Both the position numbers and the translations under genes were made by a program. A DNA stretch of 64,000 nucleotides, from positions 6,140,501-6,204,500 of the forward strand of contig NZ_CP125377.1 in the NCBI RefSeq assembly GCF_034008315.1, written 5' to 3'. This DNA comes from Pseudomonas sp. P8_241 (GTDB lineage Bacteria > Pseudomonadota > Gammaproteobacteria > Pseudomonadales > Pseudomonadaceae). Every line of letters begins with the position of its first letter. Positions within the stretch are counted from its first letter, which is position 1. The notes under the pieces were generated by a model. The model was not told the origin of the DNA. It did no database searches and saw only the letters and a program-made list of their open reading frames with translations. Positions 53,889-63,177 of the stretch are shown piece by piece.

Positions 53889-54760
53889 CAAAACGCTCCC
53901 TGAAGGATGCCGTCGCGCTCGATACGGTCGAGCAACAGAGTGGCGGCGAACAAGTCGGCGGCACCACCGGGCGAGGCATTCAATGCGATGAGTTGTTGAT
54001 CCAGTTCATGCAGACGGCGACGGCCCGCGAGGCTGGCAGTGCCGCCCGCGTCGAGCACCGCTTGAGCGCCGGATTGCATGGTGTGCAGGCCTTCTTCCCC
54101 GGCGCGGTACAGCACGCAGGTGTCGGCCAGATTCGTCATGATCGCCAGCAGCGCATCGAGCCGGGCGTTCTGTTCCCCATAGCCGGCGGCGCGACTGCGC
54201 AGCAGTTGTGGCAGAGCCCGTTGAGTCACCGCCGGAAAACCCAGTTGCGCTTCTTCACGGGCGCCGCGAGCGCCGTAGCGTTGGGCGACTTGCGCACCGT
54301 GACTGAGCGGGCGTGGAGCAAAATGATCGTCGAGCAGGGCCAACCGCGCAGCCCGTAACGCCACGCTATTGGCGCTGCAGGATTGAGGCTCCAGCGCCGC
54401 GGCAGTGATCAACAAGCCCAAGGCCCAGATCGCCCCGCGGTGGGTGTTCACCCCGCCGGTGGTGTCGAGCATGGCTTGCTCGCCTTCGCGACCGATGCGA
54501 CCCACGGCTTCGCGCAGGGGTAAGCCGATCTCGCCGCACTCGATGGCGGCTTCAGCCATTTCCTTAAAGGCCGACCACAAGGACAGCGCCGACGCGTGCA
54601 TCAGCCCCAGGTGCAAATCGGTGTGGGCGCCATTGCCGCGACGGTCGACCAGTGCCGGTTTCGGCGACAGATCAGCTTCGTCGATCAGCGCGTCCACCGC
54701 CTGGTCCGCCAGCCATTCGGCCAGACTCAGGGTTTTGGGTTGCAGGTTAAGTGCGTGCAT
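53888..54760 (-). CDS. mdcB: Triphosphoribosyl-dephospho-CoA synthase
   Basis: Makes the precursor 2'-(5''-triphosphoribosyl)-3'-dephospho-CoA from ATP and dephospho-CoA for the ACP prosthetic group. It is 290 residues, of the CitG/MdcB family. Motifs visible are [20 protein letters not shown] (the conserved KPGLVD..G.H-like block) and [15 protein letters not shown]. The start shares one base with the mdcA stop (TAATG). MdcG uses its product. Confidence 0.95.
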
Positions 54761-56430
54761 TACCAGCTCCTGAACTTGGCGGGCGGGTTATAGAGGCCAC
54801 CGGACCACTCCACCAGATCGGCCACACTTTTTGCCGCGAGCAACTCGCGAGTGGCGTCGGTGCGGCGGATGCCGAGGTCTTCAGGCAAGGCGATCAGGCC
54901 TTCGCGGCGCATGCGCGCAGTGTCTTTGGGGTTGTGGCGCAGGCCGATGGTGGTCACCCCGGCGACGGCGGCGATCATCGCCTGGCGCTCTTCCAGTGAG
55001 CGCGCCTTGTACAGGTAGGCGATGCCTTCTTCGGTCAACAGGTGGGTCACGTCGTCGCCGTAGACCATGATCGGCGCCAACGGCATGCCGCTTTTCTTCG
55101 CCACATCGACCGCATCGAGGGTTTCGACGAAGGTCGGTTTGCCGCCCTCCTGGAAGGTCTCGACCATCTGCACCACGAGTTTCTTGCCGCGCTCGAGCAT
55201 CGGTTCGGCCACATCGGTGTTGCGCATGTCGAGCCAGGCCGGAGTGCCGTGGCGGCGACCGCGCGGGTCGTGGCCCATGTTCGGTGCCCCGCCGAAACCG
55301 GCCAGGCGCCCGCGGGTAACGGTGGAGGAATGACCGTCGCCATCGACTTGCAAAGTCGCGCCGATGAACAGGTCCACGGCGTATTGCCCGGCCAGTTGGC
55401 TGAACATCCGATTGGAACGCAGGGAGCCGTCGCGCCCGGTAAAGAACACATCCGGCCGCGCCGCAATGTAGTTCTCCATCCCCAATTCGGTGCCGAAGCA
55501 ATGCACGCTTTCGACCCAGCCACTTTCAATCGCCGGGATAAGTGTTGGGTGCGGGTTGAGGGTCCAGTTACGGCAGATCTTGCCTTTGAGGCCGAGGGAT
55601 TCGCCGTAGGTCGGCAGGATCAGTTCGATGGCAGCGGTATTGAAACCGATGCCGTGATTAAGCGACTGCACGTTGTGTTTTTCGTAGATGCCACGAATCG
55701 CCATCATCGCCATCAGCACGTGCACGGGCTTGATGTGCCGAGGGTCGCGGGTGAACAGCGGTTCGATATAGAACGGCTTGTCGGCCACCACCACGAAGTC
55801 GACCCAGGAGGCGGGAATGTCCACACGCGGCAGGTCGCTGACGTCGTCCACCAGCTGATTGACCTGGACGATGACGATGCCGTCGCTGAAGGCCGCCGGT
55901 TCGATCAGCGCCGGGGTGTCTTCGGTGCTCGGCCCGGTGTAGATGTTGCCGGCGCGGTCGGCCATGAACCCGGCCGACAGCACAACGTTGGGAATCAGGT
56001 CCACCACCAGCCGTGCGTAGAGTTCGATGTAGGTGTGGATCGCGCCGATTTCCAGCAAGCCATCTTCAAGCAACTGGCTGATGCGCAGGCTTTGGGTACC
56101 CGCGAAAGAGAAGTCGAGCTTGCGGGCGATGCCACGCTCGAACAGGTCCAGGTGTTCGGAACGTCCGACGCTGGGCATGATCATGTGCAGGTCATGCAGC
56201 TTCTCGGGGTCGGCCTTGGCCAGGGAGCGGGAAAGGAAATCCGCCTGCTTCTGGTTGTTGCCTTCGAGCACCACGCGGTCACCGGGCAGAATCAGCGCTT
56301 CAAGCGCCGCGACGATGTTATCGGTGGGCAACACCACGCCGTCGGCAAGACCTCGCACCAGCTCGAGGCGTCGCTGCTTTTCGCTGCGCCGCCGCGTCCA
56401 TCGCGAGTCGGGGGATATTGTTGTTGTCAT
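54760..56430 (-). CDS. mdcA: Malonate decarboxylase subunit alpha (acetyl-S-ACP:malonate ACP transferase)
   Basis: First gene of the operon. MdcA exchanges the acetyl on ACP for malonate, giving malonyl-S-ACP and free acetate. It is 556 residues of the CoA transferase type. Recognisable parts are [20 protein letters not shown] near the N-terminus and [20 protein letters not shown] in the middle. ATG 56430 follows GGAG. About 77 bases upstream stands a 25-base palindrome that is a likely MdcR site. The operon reads mdcA-B-C-D-E-G-H-madL-madM. Confidence 0.95.
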
Positions 56431-56506
56431 GACCACTCCACGGGTTCGCTGTCGTGGAGCTACCTTAGGAGCGTTGGGTGGGGCGTATCAATCAAGCAGA
56501 GTGGAG

Positions 56507-56558: not shown

Positions 56559-56649
56559 ATCGCTGGCAAGCCAGCTCCTACAGGTATTTCGGTTGTACGC
56601 CAATGCCGAGTACATCCGATAACTCTGTAGGAGCAAGCTTGCTCGCGAT
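56559..56649. repeat. REP doublet upstream of mdcA, mixed subtypes
   Basis: TCGCTGGCAAGCCAGCTCCT from 56560 is paired with TGTAGGAGCAAGCTTGCTCG from 56625; the two arms belong to different subtypes. It separates chpC and mdcA. Confidence 0.85.
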
Positions 56650-56680: not shown

Positions 56681-57142
56681 TCAGCCGATCAACCCGGCAT
56701 CCACCAGCAACGCCTCCAGCGCCAACAGATCCGGCACCTTGGCCACTTGATCCCCCACTTGCACTGCGGCCTGTTCCAGCGAACACAACGGCACATCCAC
56801 GTAGCTCAATTGGCTGTCGAGCTTGTAGGAACGCGGAATTCCCTGCACCAGTAGCGCAATGAATTTCAACTCCGGACGGCCGCCCAGGGCATTCAGGATA
56901 ACGATTCGTGCGCGCTCTCCAATCACGGTTTTCTGGCCGCACGCCGACTCGAAACTCAGCAGCGGAATCTGCCGGTCGCGCCACGTCACCAGCCCCAGGT
57001 ACCACGGCGGCGTATCGAGGTCGAACGTCCCTGGCTGCTGGTAATCGATCAGCTCGGCGACAGCGACGTTGGGCAGGATAAGGTTGCGGTCCGCCAACGG
57101 CAGCAGCAGGCCGGTGAGGTTGCTGGTGCGATGCTCAAGCAT
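56681..57142 (-). CDS. chpC: CheW-like chemosensory adaptor
   Basis: A 153-residue CheW-domain protein. It begins LTGLLLPLADRNLILPNVAV and has WYLGLVTWRDRQIPLLSFES, the W/R region that contacts receptors and kinase. In P. aeruginosa, ChpC is the second CheW of the Pil-Chp system that controls type IV pilus twitching and cAMP. The start overlaps chpA by 8 bases. A ChpB methylesterase gene, which lies between chpA and chpC in P. aeruginosa, is absent here. Confidence 0.87.
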   Translation of the reverse strand: MLEHRTSNLTGLLLPLADRNLILPNVAVAELIDYQQPGTFDLDTPPWYLGLVTWRDRQIPLLSFESACGQKTVIGERARIVILNALGGRPELKFIALLVQGIPRSYKLDSQLSYVDVPLCSLEQAAVQVGDQVAKVPDLLALEALLVDAGLIG

Positions 57143-60100
57143 GGGTCTTGCTCCACAAGGCGATGCTTTCGAGCAGCACCGACTCCTGGTACGGCTTGCC
57201 AAGGTAATCGTTGACGCCGATGGCCATGGCGCGGTCGCGATGCTTCTGGCCGGTGCGGGAGGTGATCATGATGATCGGCAGGTGTCGCAGGCGTTCGTCA
57301 TTGCGCACCTGGGTCGCGACTTCGAAGCCGTCCATGCGTGGCATCTCGATGTCGAGCAACATCAGGTCCGGCATATGCTCTTCAAGCAGCAGCATGGCGT
57401 CGACGCCATCCTTGGCGGTCAACACATTCATGCCATGGCGTTCAAGCAGACGACTGGTGACCTTGCGCACCGTGACCGAGTCGTCGACCACCATCACCAG
57501 CAAAGGCCGCTGCGGCTCGGCCTCGATTTCGTGGCCCGCCGGACGTTGCGGCACATGGGCTTGCAAGGCGCGGATCGGCGCCAGTAAATCGAGAATCAGC
57601 ACCACCCGACCATCGCCGAGAATCGTGGCGCCAGACACGCCTTGCACCGCTGAAAATTGCGGCCCCAGGCTCTTGACCACGATTTCGCGAGTGCCGGCCA
57701 TCGTATCCACTTGCACCGCGATGTGGCGTTCGTTGCTCTGCATCAGCAATACCGGCAGCGGCAGGCTTTGGCCCAACAGCTTCGGGCGCAGGCTGGTTTT
57801 CAACAACTCGCCCAGATAAACCAACTCATAACGCTGACCAGCGTACTCGTAAGTCGGCGGATCGAGTCGGTAATGGCCTTCGAGTTCATTGGGCAGCACG
57901 CGGACGATGCCGTCGATGGTATTGAGTGGAATCGCATATTGGTCATCAAAGCATTGCACCATCAGCGCCCGGTTGACGGACACGGTAAAAGGCAGGCGAA
58001 TGCGAAAATGCACGCCCTGCCCCGGTACCGAGTCGATACTCATGGTGCCGCCCAGCTGCCGCACCTCTTCGTGCACCACGTCCATGCCGACGCCGCGCCC
58101 GGAGATCTGGGTGATTTTTTCGGCGGTGGAAAACCCCGGCTGCAGGATGAATTGCAACACGTCGTGATCGCTGATGACGCTGTCCGGTGCGAGCAGGCCG
58201 CGCTTGATCGCCTTGCGCCGCACCGCTTCGAGCGGCACACCGGCACCGTCATCGCGGATGTCGAAAATGATGTCGCCACCCTCGCGCAGCAAATCGAGGG
58301 TGATCTTGCCCTTGGCCGGTTTCCCCGCCGCCAGCCGAGCCTCGGCGGACTCCAGGCCATGGTCGACGGCGTTGCGCAACATATGCTCCAACGGCGCCGC
58401 CATGCGTTCAAGCACGTTGCGATCCATCTCGCCTTCGGCGTTATCGACGATGAAATCTACATCCTTGCCCAACTCGCCGGCCACCTGACGGACGATGCGC
58501 TGCAAGCGCGGCAGCATGCGCTCGAACGGCACCATGCGCGTGCGCATCAGGCCTTCCTGCAGTTCCGTGTTGATGCGGCCCTGTTGCTGCAGCAGGTTTT
58601 GCGCGTCCTGATTGCGCCGATCGAGGGTTTCCTTGAGGTCGAGCAAGTCGGACGCGGATTCGAACAGCGCGCGGGACAGTTGCTGCAACTGCGAATGGCG
58701 GTCCATTTCCAGCGGATCGAAGTCTTCGTAGCCCTGGCGCTCGGCGTCGACTTGCTGACGGCTGAGAATCCGCCCCTGGGTTTCGGTGTCGAGTCGGCGC
58801 AACTGGTCGCGCATCCGCTCGATGGTGGTTTCCATCTCGTTCAGCGCGACCTGCGCATCGCTGACCTGTTGCTCGATCCGGCCACGGAAGATCGACGTTT
58901 CGCCCGCCAGGTTGACCAGATCGTCAAGCAACTCCGCCGAAACCTTGACCATGTCCGCGCCGGCGTCCTGTTGTGGTGCCAGCGGTTCAGGTTTTGCTGT
59001 GGCGGGAGTCGGTGCCGGCGCTTGCGGCACGGCCGGGTGGCTGAAGTTCTGAATCGCATCGATCAAGCGATCCGCCGGCGGCATTTGTTCGCCAGCGCGG
59101 GCGGCGTCGAGCATTTGTGCAAGTCGGTCGTGGCTGCGCTGCAACAGCGCAAATAACGGCGCGGTGGGTTGCAATACACCGGAGGACAAGCCTTCGTAGA
59201 GAAACTCCAGCTCATGGGCCAAATCACCAATCGCGGCGATTTCCACCATCCGCGCACCACCCTTGAGGGTGTGCAGGTCGCGCAACAGGGTCTCCACTTC
59301 CTGACGGTTTGAAGGCTGTGCCTGCCAACGGGTCAAGGCGGCGCCAGAGCTTTCGATGATGTCGAAACCTTCCTCCAGGAAGATCTCCAGCAGCTCGCTG
59401 TCGTGATGGGCCGAGTCATTACTGACCACCGGCTCGATCACATCGGCATGGCCCGCGTGACCCTGGCGCAACGCACGGATCGCTTCGATCAGCTCGCTCG
59501 GATCGCCGAGGGATTGGTGCTGTTGCAACTGCTCAAGCAAATGCGCCAAACGATCATGGCTCTGCTGCAACAAAGTGGCGAGCCCGTCGCTGTAGCTGTA
59601 ACGGCGATCCGCCAGGCCTTCGTACAGGCATTCCAGTTCATAGGCCAGATCACCGACCGGCCCGACTTCGGCCATGCGCGCCCCGCCCTTGAGGGTGTGA
59701 AGATCCCGTTGCAAAGAGGACAGTGGCGCGGCGTTGTCCGGATCACGCAGCCAGCGTTCCAAGGCCTGGCCAGCGCTTTCGAGAATATCCACCGCCTCTT
59801 CGAGGAAGATCTCGACGATTTCATCGTCCAGCCCGGCCGCTCGGTCCTCGGCAGGAGCTGGCTTGCCAGCGAAGAACTCACCGGCACCGCGTTTTTCCAA
59901 TGAAAACGCGACATCGCTGACGTCCATCGCTGGCAAGCCGGCTCCTGCATTGGAACGTGCCAGATCCGCTGTAGCGTCGCCCAATTCGCGGATGCTCAGG
60001 GTGCGGCTGCCGTCGCTGCGAATAAGGCCCATGGCCGACGGATCGAGGCTCTCGTCGAGCAACTCGCGCAAGGCCCTGACCCGCTGCGGTTGCGCACTGA

Positions 60101-63100
60101 CCTCCTGGCCGGCAGCCAGTTCGTCGAGCATGTTGATCAGTGCCTCGTGAGCACCCTGCGCTTCATGGAAAAACCGTTCGCTGACCGCCAGGCTGCTTTC
60201 TTCCACCGCGCCGTAGAGGTCGAGCAAGGCTTCGCACAGCTCATCCACCGGTTGCAGGTCGGCCAGGTGGGCGCCTTCACCAAGGGTGGTCAATTCGTCC
60301 AGCAGCGCGCTGAGTTCCTGACGCTCACCGGGATGTTGCTGCCAGCCCTGCAACAGGCTTTCGGCGTCCAGAAGAATGTCCATGCCCTGGGCGAGGAAGT
60401 TGTTGATCAACTGTGGATCGCGCTTGAGGCGCAACCCGGCGTTCGGCGTATTCAGGTGGGTTTGCAGACGCTCGGCCAGCAGCGCCCGAGCCCGCTCGAC
60501 GACGCGCTGTGCTCCGGGGATTACCGCCAGCGGATCGCTCTTGAGTTGGCGCAGACCCAGATGAAACAAGCCTTCGGCTTCCAGCAGCAGTTCGACTTCG
60601 TCCAGGTCCAGGGCAATCAGGTGCGCCTTGTACTCCCTGGCCAGCTGATCCAGCGGCGTTGCCAGTTCGGCAATCGGCAAGACACCTGCCACGGAGGCGC
60701 TGCCCTTGAGGGTGTGCAGAGCGCGCTGCAACTCGTCGCTGGCCTGTAACGGTACTTGCTCGGCGGCCTGATCGAGGAAACGGTCAAGACTGCCCAAATG
60801 AGTCTCGGCTTCCTTGCGAAAGATCTCCAGTAACAACGGATCGAGTGCCGCCACGTCTTGCGTGTCCTCGTCGGACACCGACTCATCGCTCTTGGCCAAT
60901 GCATGGGCGCGAGCGGCCAACTGATCAACGTCGTTGCGCTGGCGCTGGGTGTTCGCCGCGTATTCGGCCACCAGTTCCGGCAACAGATTCAGCACATCGC
61001 CGATCAGCTGATGCACGGTGGCGCCCGGCTCAACGCTATGCTCCAGCACGCGATTGAGCAGGTTTTCCACAGCCCAGGCCAGTTCGCCAAGCACCAGCGC
61101 GCGCACCATCCGGCCGCTGCCCTTGAGCGTATGAAAGGCACGACGCAGTTCACTGAGGGCCGCACGGTTGTCAGGATTGATCGACCAGCGCGGCAAGTAT
61201 TCGCGAAGGATGTCCAGGACTTCCGCGGTTTCCTCCAGAAAGACTTCCCGTAACTCCTCATCTACCGGCTCTTCACCGGCCGGTGGCGGCAATAGACTGC
61301 CCGGCGTATTCAGCGCGGGAGGGTTCAGCGCCGATACCGGGCTGGCGAGCACGTCGGCCAGGGTCTGGACGAGCTGCGGATCAGCCAGTTCCTGCATCGA
61401 TTGCATGTCCTGCGCCTCACTGAGGCTCAGCACATCATCAAGCAACGGCACCTGCTGTTCGTTGGGGACAAAACCGAGGGATGCCAGGCCTTTTTCCGCG
61501 ACGTCGAGCACCGCTTCGCCCGGCGCCTCGGGGTCATCACTGAGGCGCTCAAGGTAATACTCGATGCTGGTGATCACGTCAGCCAGGTTATCCAGTTCCT
61601 GCCAACCCGGCTGACCCGGCTCCAACAGCAAATGCTCGCGAATGAAGTGATTGCACGTCTCGACCAGACTCGCCGCGCGGCTCAGCGGAATTATCGCCAA
61701 CGCGCCACGCACTTGAGTCAGCAAGGCCGGCAATGCCTGCAAATGTTGGCGATCCCAGTCCGCATCGATGTAGTCGACAATCATGTCCTTGGCCTGCTGC
61801 AAACAGATACGGGCCTCCTTGATCACGATCTGGTGGATCTGCGTCAGGTCGGTGGTCGGCAGGCGACTGTCTTCCTGACTCTCGGGCTCCACAGTGCCGA
61901 CCATGCCGGCCAGCGTCGCCTCGACATACAGCAGGGCTCCGGCGACGTCCATGAGGATCGCATCATCCGGCGCACGCAGGCCCTGGGCGAGGCTCAACAC
62001 CACCGCCAGTTGATCGATGATGACCTTGCGCGGCTGACCAAAGCCCAGCACCGCCAAGGTATCGGCAATTTGCCGCAAGGGCGCCAGCAGGCTGTCGAGA
62101 TCGGACGTGTGCTGGCGGTCGCTGCGCACGAACAGGTCAAGGCGTTCCTTGACCCGCACCAGTTCTTCACAGAGCGCGGCCAGCACCGAGCGCATGGCGT
62201 CACGGTCAGGACCGGCCAGCCGTGCGCGTTCTTCATCGACCATCGCGCTGTCGGGTAGTGCGTCGTCCAGTGAGTAGCGTTCTTTCATGGTCAGCATCTG
62301 CCCGGTGGGAAATTCGGCCTTGGCAATGTAAAAGAGCAAGCTTTTGAGCAACTCCGGCGGTGCCGGCTGATTGATGCCGCGCATACCCTGATCGAGCAGG
62401 CGCTTGAGCTCCTTGTCGGCGTCCTTGAACAGACTGCGCAGGGCCGGGCTGTTGGCGATCACGCCGCCCCGCATGCCTTCGACCAGTGCCGAAGCCACCT
62501 GCCACAACGGGCTCAAGGGGGCGTCGCCGGACAATCCTTCGAGGCGGGCGAAGACCTTGGCCAGGCAATCGAGGTTGCTCTCGCTGTCTTGCTCACGCAA
62601 AAAACCCACCAGTGCCATCTGCAGCAGCTGCCGCAGCTTGCGCACCACACTGGGGAAATCCGCCGGCTCGAGCTGTGCCAGCACCTCAGCCGTCAGCGAC
62701 GGCAAGTCAGGCAGCTGCGGACTGAACAGGCTGGTTTCCGACAACCGTTTTTCACCACGGGCGCTGCGCAGGTCGTTGATCAGCGGTAGCACTACCAGCG
62801 GTAGATCGCGGCGCGCGCCTTGCACCCGATCCAGATAAATCGGCAGTTGCCCCAAAGCCTGCATCAACAGGTGCAATGCCTCGTCACGATGGCTGACGCG
62901 ATTGTCCCGCAAGGCCAGGGCCAGTTGCTCCATCTCTTCGGCGAGCAAGGCCGCGCCGTAGAACTCGACCATCTGCAAACTGCCGTGAACCTGATGGATG
63001 CATGAAAGGCTTGCATCCAGCACGTGCGTCGCCTGCGGGTCATCGAGCACGGTTTCGATCGCGCGATGAGCCTGCTTCAGCGTTTCGGCAATCTCGCCTT

Positions 63101-63140
63101 TGACCCACTCGAGGGCCACATAGTCGTGCCGATCACCCAT
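57135..63140 (-). CDS. chpA: ChpA: multi-Hpt hybrid CheA histidine kinase with receiver
   Basis: A 2001-residue kinase of the Pil-Chp system. Canonical Hpt sites (HTLKG) are at about residues 670, 809, 1148 and 1290; the N-terminal IHQVHGSLQM (His49/His52) is a degenerate one. The CheA core follows: dimerisation/P4 from about 1395, ATP-binding EHMLRNAVDHGLESAEAR near 1590 and DIRDDGAGVPLEAV, a CheW-like part, then a receiver with Asp near 1930 (LLDIEMPRMDG). P. aeruginosa ChpA is about 2470 residues with more Hpt-type domains. Residues about 1064-1097 are encoded by a REP doublet. It follows pilJ after 37 bases. Confidence 0.93.
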   Translation of the reverse strand: MGDRHDYVALEWVKGEIAETLKQAHRAIETVLDDPQATHVLDASLSCIHQVHGSLQMVEFYGAALLAEEMEQLALALRDNRVSHRDEALHLLMQALGQLPIYLDRVQGARRDLPLVVLPLINDLRSARGEKRLSETSLFSPQLPDLPSLTAEVLAQLEPADFPSVVRKLRQLLQMALVGFLREQDSESNLDCLAKVFARLEGLSGDAPLSPLWQVASALVEGMRGGVIANSPALRSLFKDADKELKRLLDQGMRGINQPAPPELLKSLLFYIAKAEFPTGQMLTMKERYSLDDALPDSAMVDEERARLAGPDRDAMRSVLAALCEELVRVKERLDLFVRSDRQHTSDLDSLLAPLRQIADTLAVLGFGQPRKVIIDQLAVVLSLAQGLRAPDDAILMDVAGALLYVEATLAGMVGTVEPESQEDSRLPTTDLTQIHQIVIKEARICLQQAKDMIVDYIDADWDRQHLQALPALLTQVRGALAIIPLSRAASLVETCNHFIREHLLLEPGQPGWQELDNLADVITSIEYYLERLSDDPEAPGEAVLDVAEKGLASLGFVPNEQQVPLLDDVLSLSEAQDMQSMQELADPQLVQTLADVLASPVSALNPPALNTPGSLLPPPAGEEPVDEELREVFLEETAEVLDILREYLPRWSINPDNRAALSELRRAFHTLKGSGRMVRALVLGELAWAVENLLNRVLEHSVEPGATVHQLIGDVLNLLPELVAEYAANTQRQRNDVDQLAARAHALAKSDESVSDEDTQDVAALDPLLLEIFRKEAETHLGSLDRFLDQAAEQVPLQASDELQRALHTLKGSASVAGVLPIAELATPLDQLAREYKAHLIALDLDEVELLLEAEGLFHLGLRQLKSDPLAVIPGAQRVVERARALLAERLQTHLNTPNAGLRLKRDPQLINNFLAQGMDILLDAESLLQGWQQHPGERQELSALLDELTTLGEGAHLADLQPVDELCEALLDLYGAVEESSLAVSERFFHEAQGAHEALINMLDELAAGQEVSAQPQRVRALRELLDESLDPSAMGLIRSDGSRTLSIRELGDATADLARSNAGAGLPAMDVSDVAFSLEKRGAGEFFAGKPAPAEDRAAGLDDEIVEIFLEEAVDILESAGQALERWLRDPDNAAPLSSLQRDLHTLKGGARMAEVGPVGDLAYELECLYEGLADRRYSYSDGLATLLQQSHDRLAHLLEQLQQHQSLGDPSELIEAIRALRQGHAGHADVIEPVVSNDSAHHDSELLEIFLEEGFDIIESSGAALTRWQAQPSNRQEVETLLRDLHTLKGGARMVEIAAIGDLAHELEFLYEGLSSGVLQPTAPLFALLQRSHDRLAQMLDAARAGEQMPPADRLIDAIQNFSHPAVPQAPAPTPATAKPEPLAPQQDAGADMVKVSAELLDDLVNLAGETSIFRGRIEQQVSDAQVALNEMETTIERMRDQLRRLDTETQGRILSRQQVDAERQGYEDFDPLEMDRHSQLQQLSRALFESASDLLDLKETLDRRNQDAQNLLQQQGRINTELQEGLMRTRMVPFERMLPRLQRIVRQVAGELGKDVDFIVDNAEGEMDRNVLERMAAPLEHMLRNAVDHGLESAEARLAAGKPAKGKITLDLLREGGDIIFDIRDDGAGVPLEAVRRKAIKRGLLAPDSVISDHDVLQFILQPGFSTAEKITQISGRGVGMDVVHEEVRQLGGTMSIDSVPGQGVHFRIRLPFTVSVNRALMVQCFDDQYAIPLNTIDGIVRVLPNELEGHYRLDPPTYEYAGQRYELVYLGELLKTSLRPKLLGQSLPLPVLLMQSNERHIAVQVDTMAGTREIVVKSLGPQFSAVQGVSGATILGDGRVVLILDLLAPIRALQAHVPQRPAGHEIEAEPQRPLLVMVVDDSVTVRKVTSRLLERHGMNVLTAKDGVDAMLLLEEHMPDLMLLDIEMPRMDGFEVATQVRNDERLRHLPIIMITSRTGQKHRDRAMAIGVNDYLGKPYQESVLLESIALWSKTHA
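59851..59949. repeat. REP doublet inside the chpA coding sequence
   Basis: CAGGAGCTGGCTTGCCAGCG (59852-59871) and the inverse ATCGCTGGCAAGCCGGCTCC (59925-59944) are family I arms with a spacer of about 53 bases. In the chpA frame the region reads SNAGAGLPAMDVSD and FFAGKPAPAEDR and contains no stop codon. It lies in a linker between two Hpt domains. Confidence 0.92.
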
Positions 63141-63177
63141 AACCACTCCAATCACAATTCAGTTACCCATGGGCGGT

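Follow-up and report, generated by a model that had tools for sequence, protein, structure and literature searches.

REP sequences lying entirely within open reading frames, among them dimers that code for 20-30 residues, were reported in 2013, and flexible linkers were proposed as neutral sites for them (BMC Genomics, PMC3733652). These intragenic GTAG/CGTC REPs resemble the element analysed here in being GTAG-type palindromes, often dimers, that lie inside ORFs and contribute 20-30 residues. The main text of that article makes no mention of chpA, chemotaxis or a histidine kinase, and neither the tracking of one insert over many species nor an inversion of the spacer, both features of the chpA REPIN, was met in the part available. 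The same source tells of the Rickettsia palindromic elements, which are likewise in-frame palindromic repeats in ORFs but belong to another element family and another host. In Pseudomonas fluorescens SBW25, 14 of 1,067 REP 16-mers overlap genes (PLoS Genet 2011, PMC3116915). The REPINs of this strain share with our element the inverted REP doublet, the many copies and the predicted hairpin; in the part of the article available they are described as extragenic, whereas the chpA copy lies inside a conserved gene.

For the inversion of a spacer, the nearest precedent is template switching at inverted repeats in yeast, where arm homogenisation and spacer inversion change 2-5 bp in coding DNA (Sci Rep 2021, PMC8604942). 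As far as the accessible part of that article goes, its authors regard long inversions in proteins as unlikely to be neutral. Homogenised arms, a reversibly inverted spacer and a location in coding DNA are common to both systems, but the yeast events comprise 2-5 bp and were seen between strains, whereas the chpA inversions comprise about 50 nt, were seen between species and have a mechanism that we infer. Intragenic invertons (Chanin et al., Nature 2024, via PMC11868660, available in part) also recode a bacterial protein by DNA inversion within the gene; the chpA orientations are known from comparison between species and from proteins carrying the same species label. Since other genes had already been known to contain REPs in frame, the bare presence of one in chpA adds a new member to a known kind. 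Neither a REPIN in chpA nor the inversion of a REPIN spacer within a protein was found in the titles and abstract starts of the open-licence literature. As far as this literature was searched, the new part is that one coding REPIN can be tracked over many species, with a recurrent inversion of its long spacer and a kept pairing of its arms.

The window, a stretch of 64,000 nucleotides from Pseudomonas sp. P8_241, contains the gene and the element as follows, together with three ORFs elsewhere in the same genome (L, G and P numbers denote chpA loci, genomes and proteins throughout):

57135..63155, minus strand: chpA ORF, the host gene; 2006 codons with six Hpt stretches, a kinase ATPase, a CheW-like domain and receiver domains
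60111..60413, minus strand: upstream Hpt-like domain, residues 915-1015; Pfam Hpt 23.0 bits, below the cut-off of 24.6
59925..59948, minus strand: REP arm on the 5' side in the gene, GCAGGAGCCGGCTTGCCAGCGATG, itself palindromic
59875..59924, minus strand: REPIN spacer in orientation A, GDVSDVAFSLEKRGAGE-like peptide
59851..59874, minus strand: REP arm on the 3' side in the gene, itself palindromic and inverted relative to the other arm
59520..59822, minus strand: downstream Hpt domain, clear, residues 1112-1212; Pfam Hpt 57.2 bits
G000:C1:1296890-1297168, 3471414-3471737 and 6248985-6249305: Y1_Tnp (PF01797) profile matches, candidate REP-associated transposases

Several homologues of the 57135-63155 product carry the source-given name ChpA (chemosensory pili kinase), and the product is predicted to be a pilus-signalling kinase; none of the 25 NCBIfam models listed passes its cut-off. 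Background on the Pil-Chp system is given in PMC12632253, available to us in part. The initial annotation had placed the block in a linker between two Hpt domains, which holds without reservation for the downstream domain (57.2 bits), while the upstream one can be called Hpt-like only (23.0 bits against a cut-off of 24.6); by eye, a Thr replaces the usual His there. A chemoreceptor signalling domain is encoded by the ORF upstream of chpA (63178 to the window's end), and a further REP doublet (56560-56648) lies just past the 3' end of chpA, before the gene for the malonate decarboxylase alpha subunit (54760-56436).

Within chpA, a complete REP doublet (REPIN) occupies 59851-59948 on the minus strand, with two inverted 24-nt arms around a 50-nt spacer. 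The element proper comprises 98 nt and the frame unit 99 nt, which corrects the 59851..59949 of the earlier reading. The reading frame stays open across it and the block encodes AGAGLPAMDVSDVAFSLEKRGAGEFFAGKPAPA, residues 1070-1102 of ChpA, i.e. 33 residues in the linker. The segments 59839-59877 and 59922-59960 are inverted repeats with 79% complementarity. Both outer arm ends of this copy read GCAG, compared to GTAG or GTGG in most chpA copies viewed. REP pattern matches are strongly enriched in the window (35 versus 0.20 expected from shuffles) and in the whole genome, with 695 matches (355+340, at most 2 mismatches) versus 0 for a reversed-pattern control, and the whole element has 53 genome matches, counting partial ones and the chpA copy itself. 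The inverted arms, the enrichment and the stop-free frame confirm the earlier claim of a REP doublet within the chpA frame. That such an in-frame copy is unusual stands for the window, where it alone, of 18 REP places (17 doublets and one singlet), lies within a coding-like ORF (100 codons or more, with a GC content by codon position like that of coding DNA); as a general statement it has to be weakened, given the REPs already described inside genes in the part of PMC3733652 available.

Besides, the block is predicted to fold strongly: its RNA reaches -67.1 kcal/mol (z -8.63) and its DNA a z of -9.06, and 0 of 200 shuffles folded as well in either case. The inverted REP pair round a spacer, the many genome copies and the predicted single hairpin are all found as expected for a REPIN; the extragenic location is not, as the block lies inside chpA, and we take this location as a usual habit of REPINs rather than a defining rule. 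Matches to Y1_Tnp (PF01797) above the cut-off are present in three ORFs of 163-199 codons in the same genome. An AlphaFold2 model of ChpA residues 908-1214, built with 30 sequences (mean pLDDT 73.9, pTM 0.45), has two stretches below pLDDT 50, its residues 131-159 and 161-201, with a helical part on either side; the block corresponds to model residues 163-195 and is predicted to form a loose, disordered linker.

Many species share the element, and either orientation of its spacer occurs; both facts had been missed by the initial annotation. Among 80 named chpA loci, REP matches occur in the linker of 11 (L009-L019) and apparent remnants or scars in that of three (L021, L024, L025); the other 66 lack both. 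This set leans to carriers, because the query included the block and the set is limited to the best 80 of 205 relatives. The linker of the 66 loci free of REPs and scars comprises 6-13 residues in 64 cases, 16 in L071 and 27 in L072, in agreement with the earlier claim that the block adds about 33 residues and with the orthologues lacking it that this reading had named as support. In 398 genomes sampled across the genus Pseudomonas, at least 20 carry a REPIN in the same chpA linker (the window, 17 in L149-L165 and two tandem cases, L264 and L265), a lower bound from the matches listed, 30 loci and 20 fetched stretches. Identical inserts occur in the pairs L010/L149, L012/L150, L018/L162 and L013/L264, and part of the sampled genomes seem to duplicate named ones. 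Judged by record names, the carriers appear to be members of the Pseudomonas fluorescens group. Long linkers also occur in distant Pseudomonas (ORFs of about 2400-2670 codons), where some 30-50 residues, mostly acidic or proline-rich, are unrelated to the block; the same residues encoded without a REP, which the initial annotation had named as speaking against it, were not seen there.

Wherever the linker has REP matches, in 29 of 29 loci counting the window's own L089 and three repeat genomes, the element starts in one and the same frame and the ORF is open. When 139 chpA loci were scanned for REPs, about half of them in part only, 56 matches fell into the linker and seven single ones elsewhere. 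Of these seven, six contain one mismatch, and the exact one is found in L082, about 1064 codons upstream. The exact match perhaps lies before the start codon, since the ORF is defined stop-to-stop. A second REP doublet elsewhere in chpA was not seen among these 139 loci, about half of them partial.

Translated, the spacer gives either a VNDDALSLDKRGA-like (A) or a SQAPRLSNENASSLT-like (B) peptide, B being A read from the opposite strand. Orientation was classed in 105 of 148 proteins, many of them near-copies, giving 74 A and 31 B. In a linker-free ChpA tree of 138 proteins (anchor score of at least 140, at least 1800 residues, one for each linker, with the window and L009-L088 added), the carriers fall into one clade of 80 rows with a support of 88. 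Nine rows of this clade, including the scar L024, were classed as empty. The presence of the element requires 9 changes on this tree, at least 6 of them forced by starred branches, and 8 on a smaller tree of 74 rows with shorter flanks; one of the 9 arises because L072, whose linker is unrelated, was counted as present. One gain with several losses is an assumption on our side, because of the nine element-free rows inside the carrier clade and these 8-9 changes in presence. The orientation requires 12 changes on both trees, and a single B clade is rejected with p-AU 8.5e-28 (13 B rows on the 74-row tree, a group named after the tree had been seen).

We consider it likely that these patterns go back to one old REPIN insertion, in frame, in chpA of an ancestor of the Pseudomonas fluorescens-group clade, tolerated as a predicted disordered linker, whose spacer was then turned round several times in place, probably through strand switching between the REP arms. 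We infer the single origin, the inversion in place and the strand switching from comparison of the copies. Tolerance would result from geometry, as insertion, inversion and tandem duplication would all leave the ChpA frame intact. With the spacer either way round, the link between the Hpt-like and the Hpt domain would be lengthened, probably with little functional effect.

The geometry can be followed in 65 distinct genomic copies of the chpA-type REPIN family, selected by their likeness to chpA copies. Sixty have a frame-keeping length, 59 are open in the chpA phase, 51 in the same phase of the opposite strand and 50 in both, compared to 6, 1, 3 and 40 in the other four phases. The ChpA frame survives because most copies of the family have the usual length of 99 nt and are stop-free in one phase on both strands; a family that is almost frame-neutral in one phase both ways would explain the shared phase as well as the harmless flips. 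Selection for an open unused orientation found no support, as this orientation is open in 17 of 21 chpA copies and the B phase in 51 of 65 genomic copies, which is no clear difference. The linker has also been remodelled further, with two (L013), three (P0065, P0114) or four (P0010) tandem copies in linkers of 74 to 130 residues, and with collapsed or deleted-looking forms in L021, L024, L025 and P0138 and a collapsed form in L267. In L265 (G273) the tandem unit of 84 nt (28 codons) includes bases like those on the chpA side of the junction, and therefore the tandem likely arose in place. Regular REP arrays with a spacing of about 125-132 nt are found at G229:C1:760651-762550 and 336103-336984, in a genome rich in the chpA-type REPIN family.

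The strongest competitor of inversion in place, which we regard as unlikely, at about one chance in five, is that a permissive linker was struck repeatedly, REPINs from the host pool having been inserted, or gene-converted over a resident copy, in either orientation. The best case for inversion in place is the group of L014 and L017-L019, in which the B copies L017-L019 are 92.9-94.9% identical to the A copy L014 once they are reversed, compared to 81.6-82.7% in their present direction, and in which the A and B copies are surrounded by identical flanking bases, a point against repeated hits. Further evidence comes from likeness searches in which 40 candidates per genome were scored. The window copy is identical to the chpA copy L009 at 90 of 98 positions and 80-81% identical to the best genomic copies; the REPINs scored at other places of G267 and G296 are at best 88% like the B copy L162. 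L155 is 98% identical to the chpA copy of G404, 88% to that of G109, 85% to that of G295 and 84% to that of G150, compared to 84-85% for its own best paralogues, and 81% identical to the chpA copy of G285, which is under that genome's best genomic copies. L152 shows 86% to chpA of G290 (inverted), 84% to a genomic copy and 80% to the chpA copy of G283. L160, finally, is 93% identical to a copy in its own genome outside chpA and 86% to the nearest chpA copy found, so that recopying from a genomic REPIN fits this genome better. Taken by their sequences, three of the five cases (window, L162, L155) would favour descent within chpA, in that copies in chpA of other species are clearly nearer, one (L152) slightly so, and one (L160) exchange.

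Besides L160 and the 8-9 changes in presence required by the trees, repeated hits are also favoured by the type of the arms. A hand tally over 20 genomes compared the arm type with whichever of three REP types is commonest in the host; 12 genomes match, 7 differ and one is mixed (G285), a combination of match and mismatch that fits some exchange. The host REP type as the only determinant of the arm type was rejected, as 7 of the 20 genomes disagree. In addition, the long-loop arm variants of L010 and L015 also occur at REP-like places outside chpA. One arm with such a longer loop is present in L010, L149 and L015 (right arm) and, by protein, in L025, P0065, P0078, P0128 and P0143; the strings, like GGTGCGGCGATCCGAC or CTCCGGGCGGCGTTCCGAC, are in frame, and the same strings are seen at REP-like places outside chpA (L013, L192).

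A somewhat weaker candidate goes further than past inversions and assumes a living, translated REPIN cassette, i.e. a putative invertase-free intragenic switch whose spacer would still be flipping through strand switching at the REP arms, so that one population would hold both linker peptides between its phosphotransfer domains; judged from the sequences at hand, we regard this as rather doubtful. Within chpA, inverted repeats flank a segment that occurs in both orientations, between species and also among proteins of one species label. The label P. azerbaijanorientalis covers an A protein (P0044) and two B proteins (P0123, P0124), which are identical to it at 1969 and 1970 of 2004 aligned positions.

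Less probable by a good margin is that the block was recruited, its length or its mRNA hairpin being selected for the spacing of phosphotransfer domains or the pacing of translation. The long retention across species would fit such a role, as would the strong predicted hairpin and the kept arm pairing. In 21 distinct chpA copies, 95.0% of the cells of the long stem are paired with 42 two-sided changes, and 97.2% of those of the two arm hairpins with 28 two-sided changes, while slid controls pair in 31-40% (long stem) and 19-42% (arm hairpins). None of 500 shuffles equalled the observed percentage paired, two-sided cells or covariation score, in the stem or in the arm hairpins; two of the five covariation measures, namely pairs with a two-sided change and pair types, were reached by shuffles (23 and 31 of 500 for the long stem, 453 and 365 of 500 for the arm hairpins). 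In one and the same copy, the two arms match each other at 22.7 of 24 positions versus 20.0 after shuffling (maximum of 2000 shuffles, 21.7), in 24 copies called as 98 nt, two of which are repeats of the same genomes (L012/L150, L018/L162), and with L010, L013, L015, L149 and L157 omitted. The controls for pairing and arm agreement remove relatedness only in part. However, strand switching by itself also predicts arm pairing, and many relatives have short linkers while linker length varies up to 130 residues, both of which argue against recruitment.

The divergence of the insert bears on the same point. At a flank dS of 0.25-0.40 (13 related pairs) it is low for such an insert (arms 4.3%, spacer 6.2%), which would favour recruitment; the pattern is uneven, the 6 pairs of the 0.4-0.6 bin reaching 9% and 25%, respectively. 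For the 71 pairs of the 0.6-0.8 bin, on the other hand, the insert dN is about twice that of the flanks (0.20 versus 0.09), with an insert dS of 0.37 versus 0.71, which speaks against recruitment. Strong purifying selection on the linker peptide is unsupported: the pooled dN/dS of the insert is 0.89 versus 0.12 in the flanks for 8 hand-chosen pairs of same-orientation relatives, a choice favouring low divergence; when all 136 same-orientation pairs are taken, their 0.6-0.8 bin gives about 0.55. Local recombination as a cause of the low divergence is also unsupported, since the nearest 30 codons show a dS of 0.39 upstream and 0.60 downstream with no clear dip (46 pairs), short tracts being possible. 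In our reading, the low divergence and the kept pairing point to homogenised arms or to a constraint at the DNA or RNA level, and not to selection acting on the peptide. What is kept seems to be largely a property of the DNA, the arms remaining complementary while the encoded residues change. The near-identical ChpA proteins P0002 and P0003 differ in 3 of 2001 residues, one of which is residue 1102, the last of the block.

A chance likeness or a sequencing error in place of a real insertion, for which no supporting point was found, is hardly credible in view of the 35 REP matches against 0.20 expected, the full-length frame with all expected domains and the REPIN copies held by other genomes at the same place; the frame-shifting error considered by the initial annotation is likewise unlikely, because other species carry such an element in the same frame.

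In this context, the chpA locus is a natural record of a mobile palindromic element in a reading frame, in which the frame and the DNA pairing are kept, the residues change and the middle occurs both ways. It makes testable, at one small locus, how the arms of REPINs remain matched, and also whether bacterial proteins really acquire multi-residue changes when a spacer between inverted repeats is turned round. Finally, the frame-keeping length and the two-way stop-free phase suggest how one REPIN family may enter genes without breaking them, a property that can be searched for in other genes.
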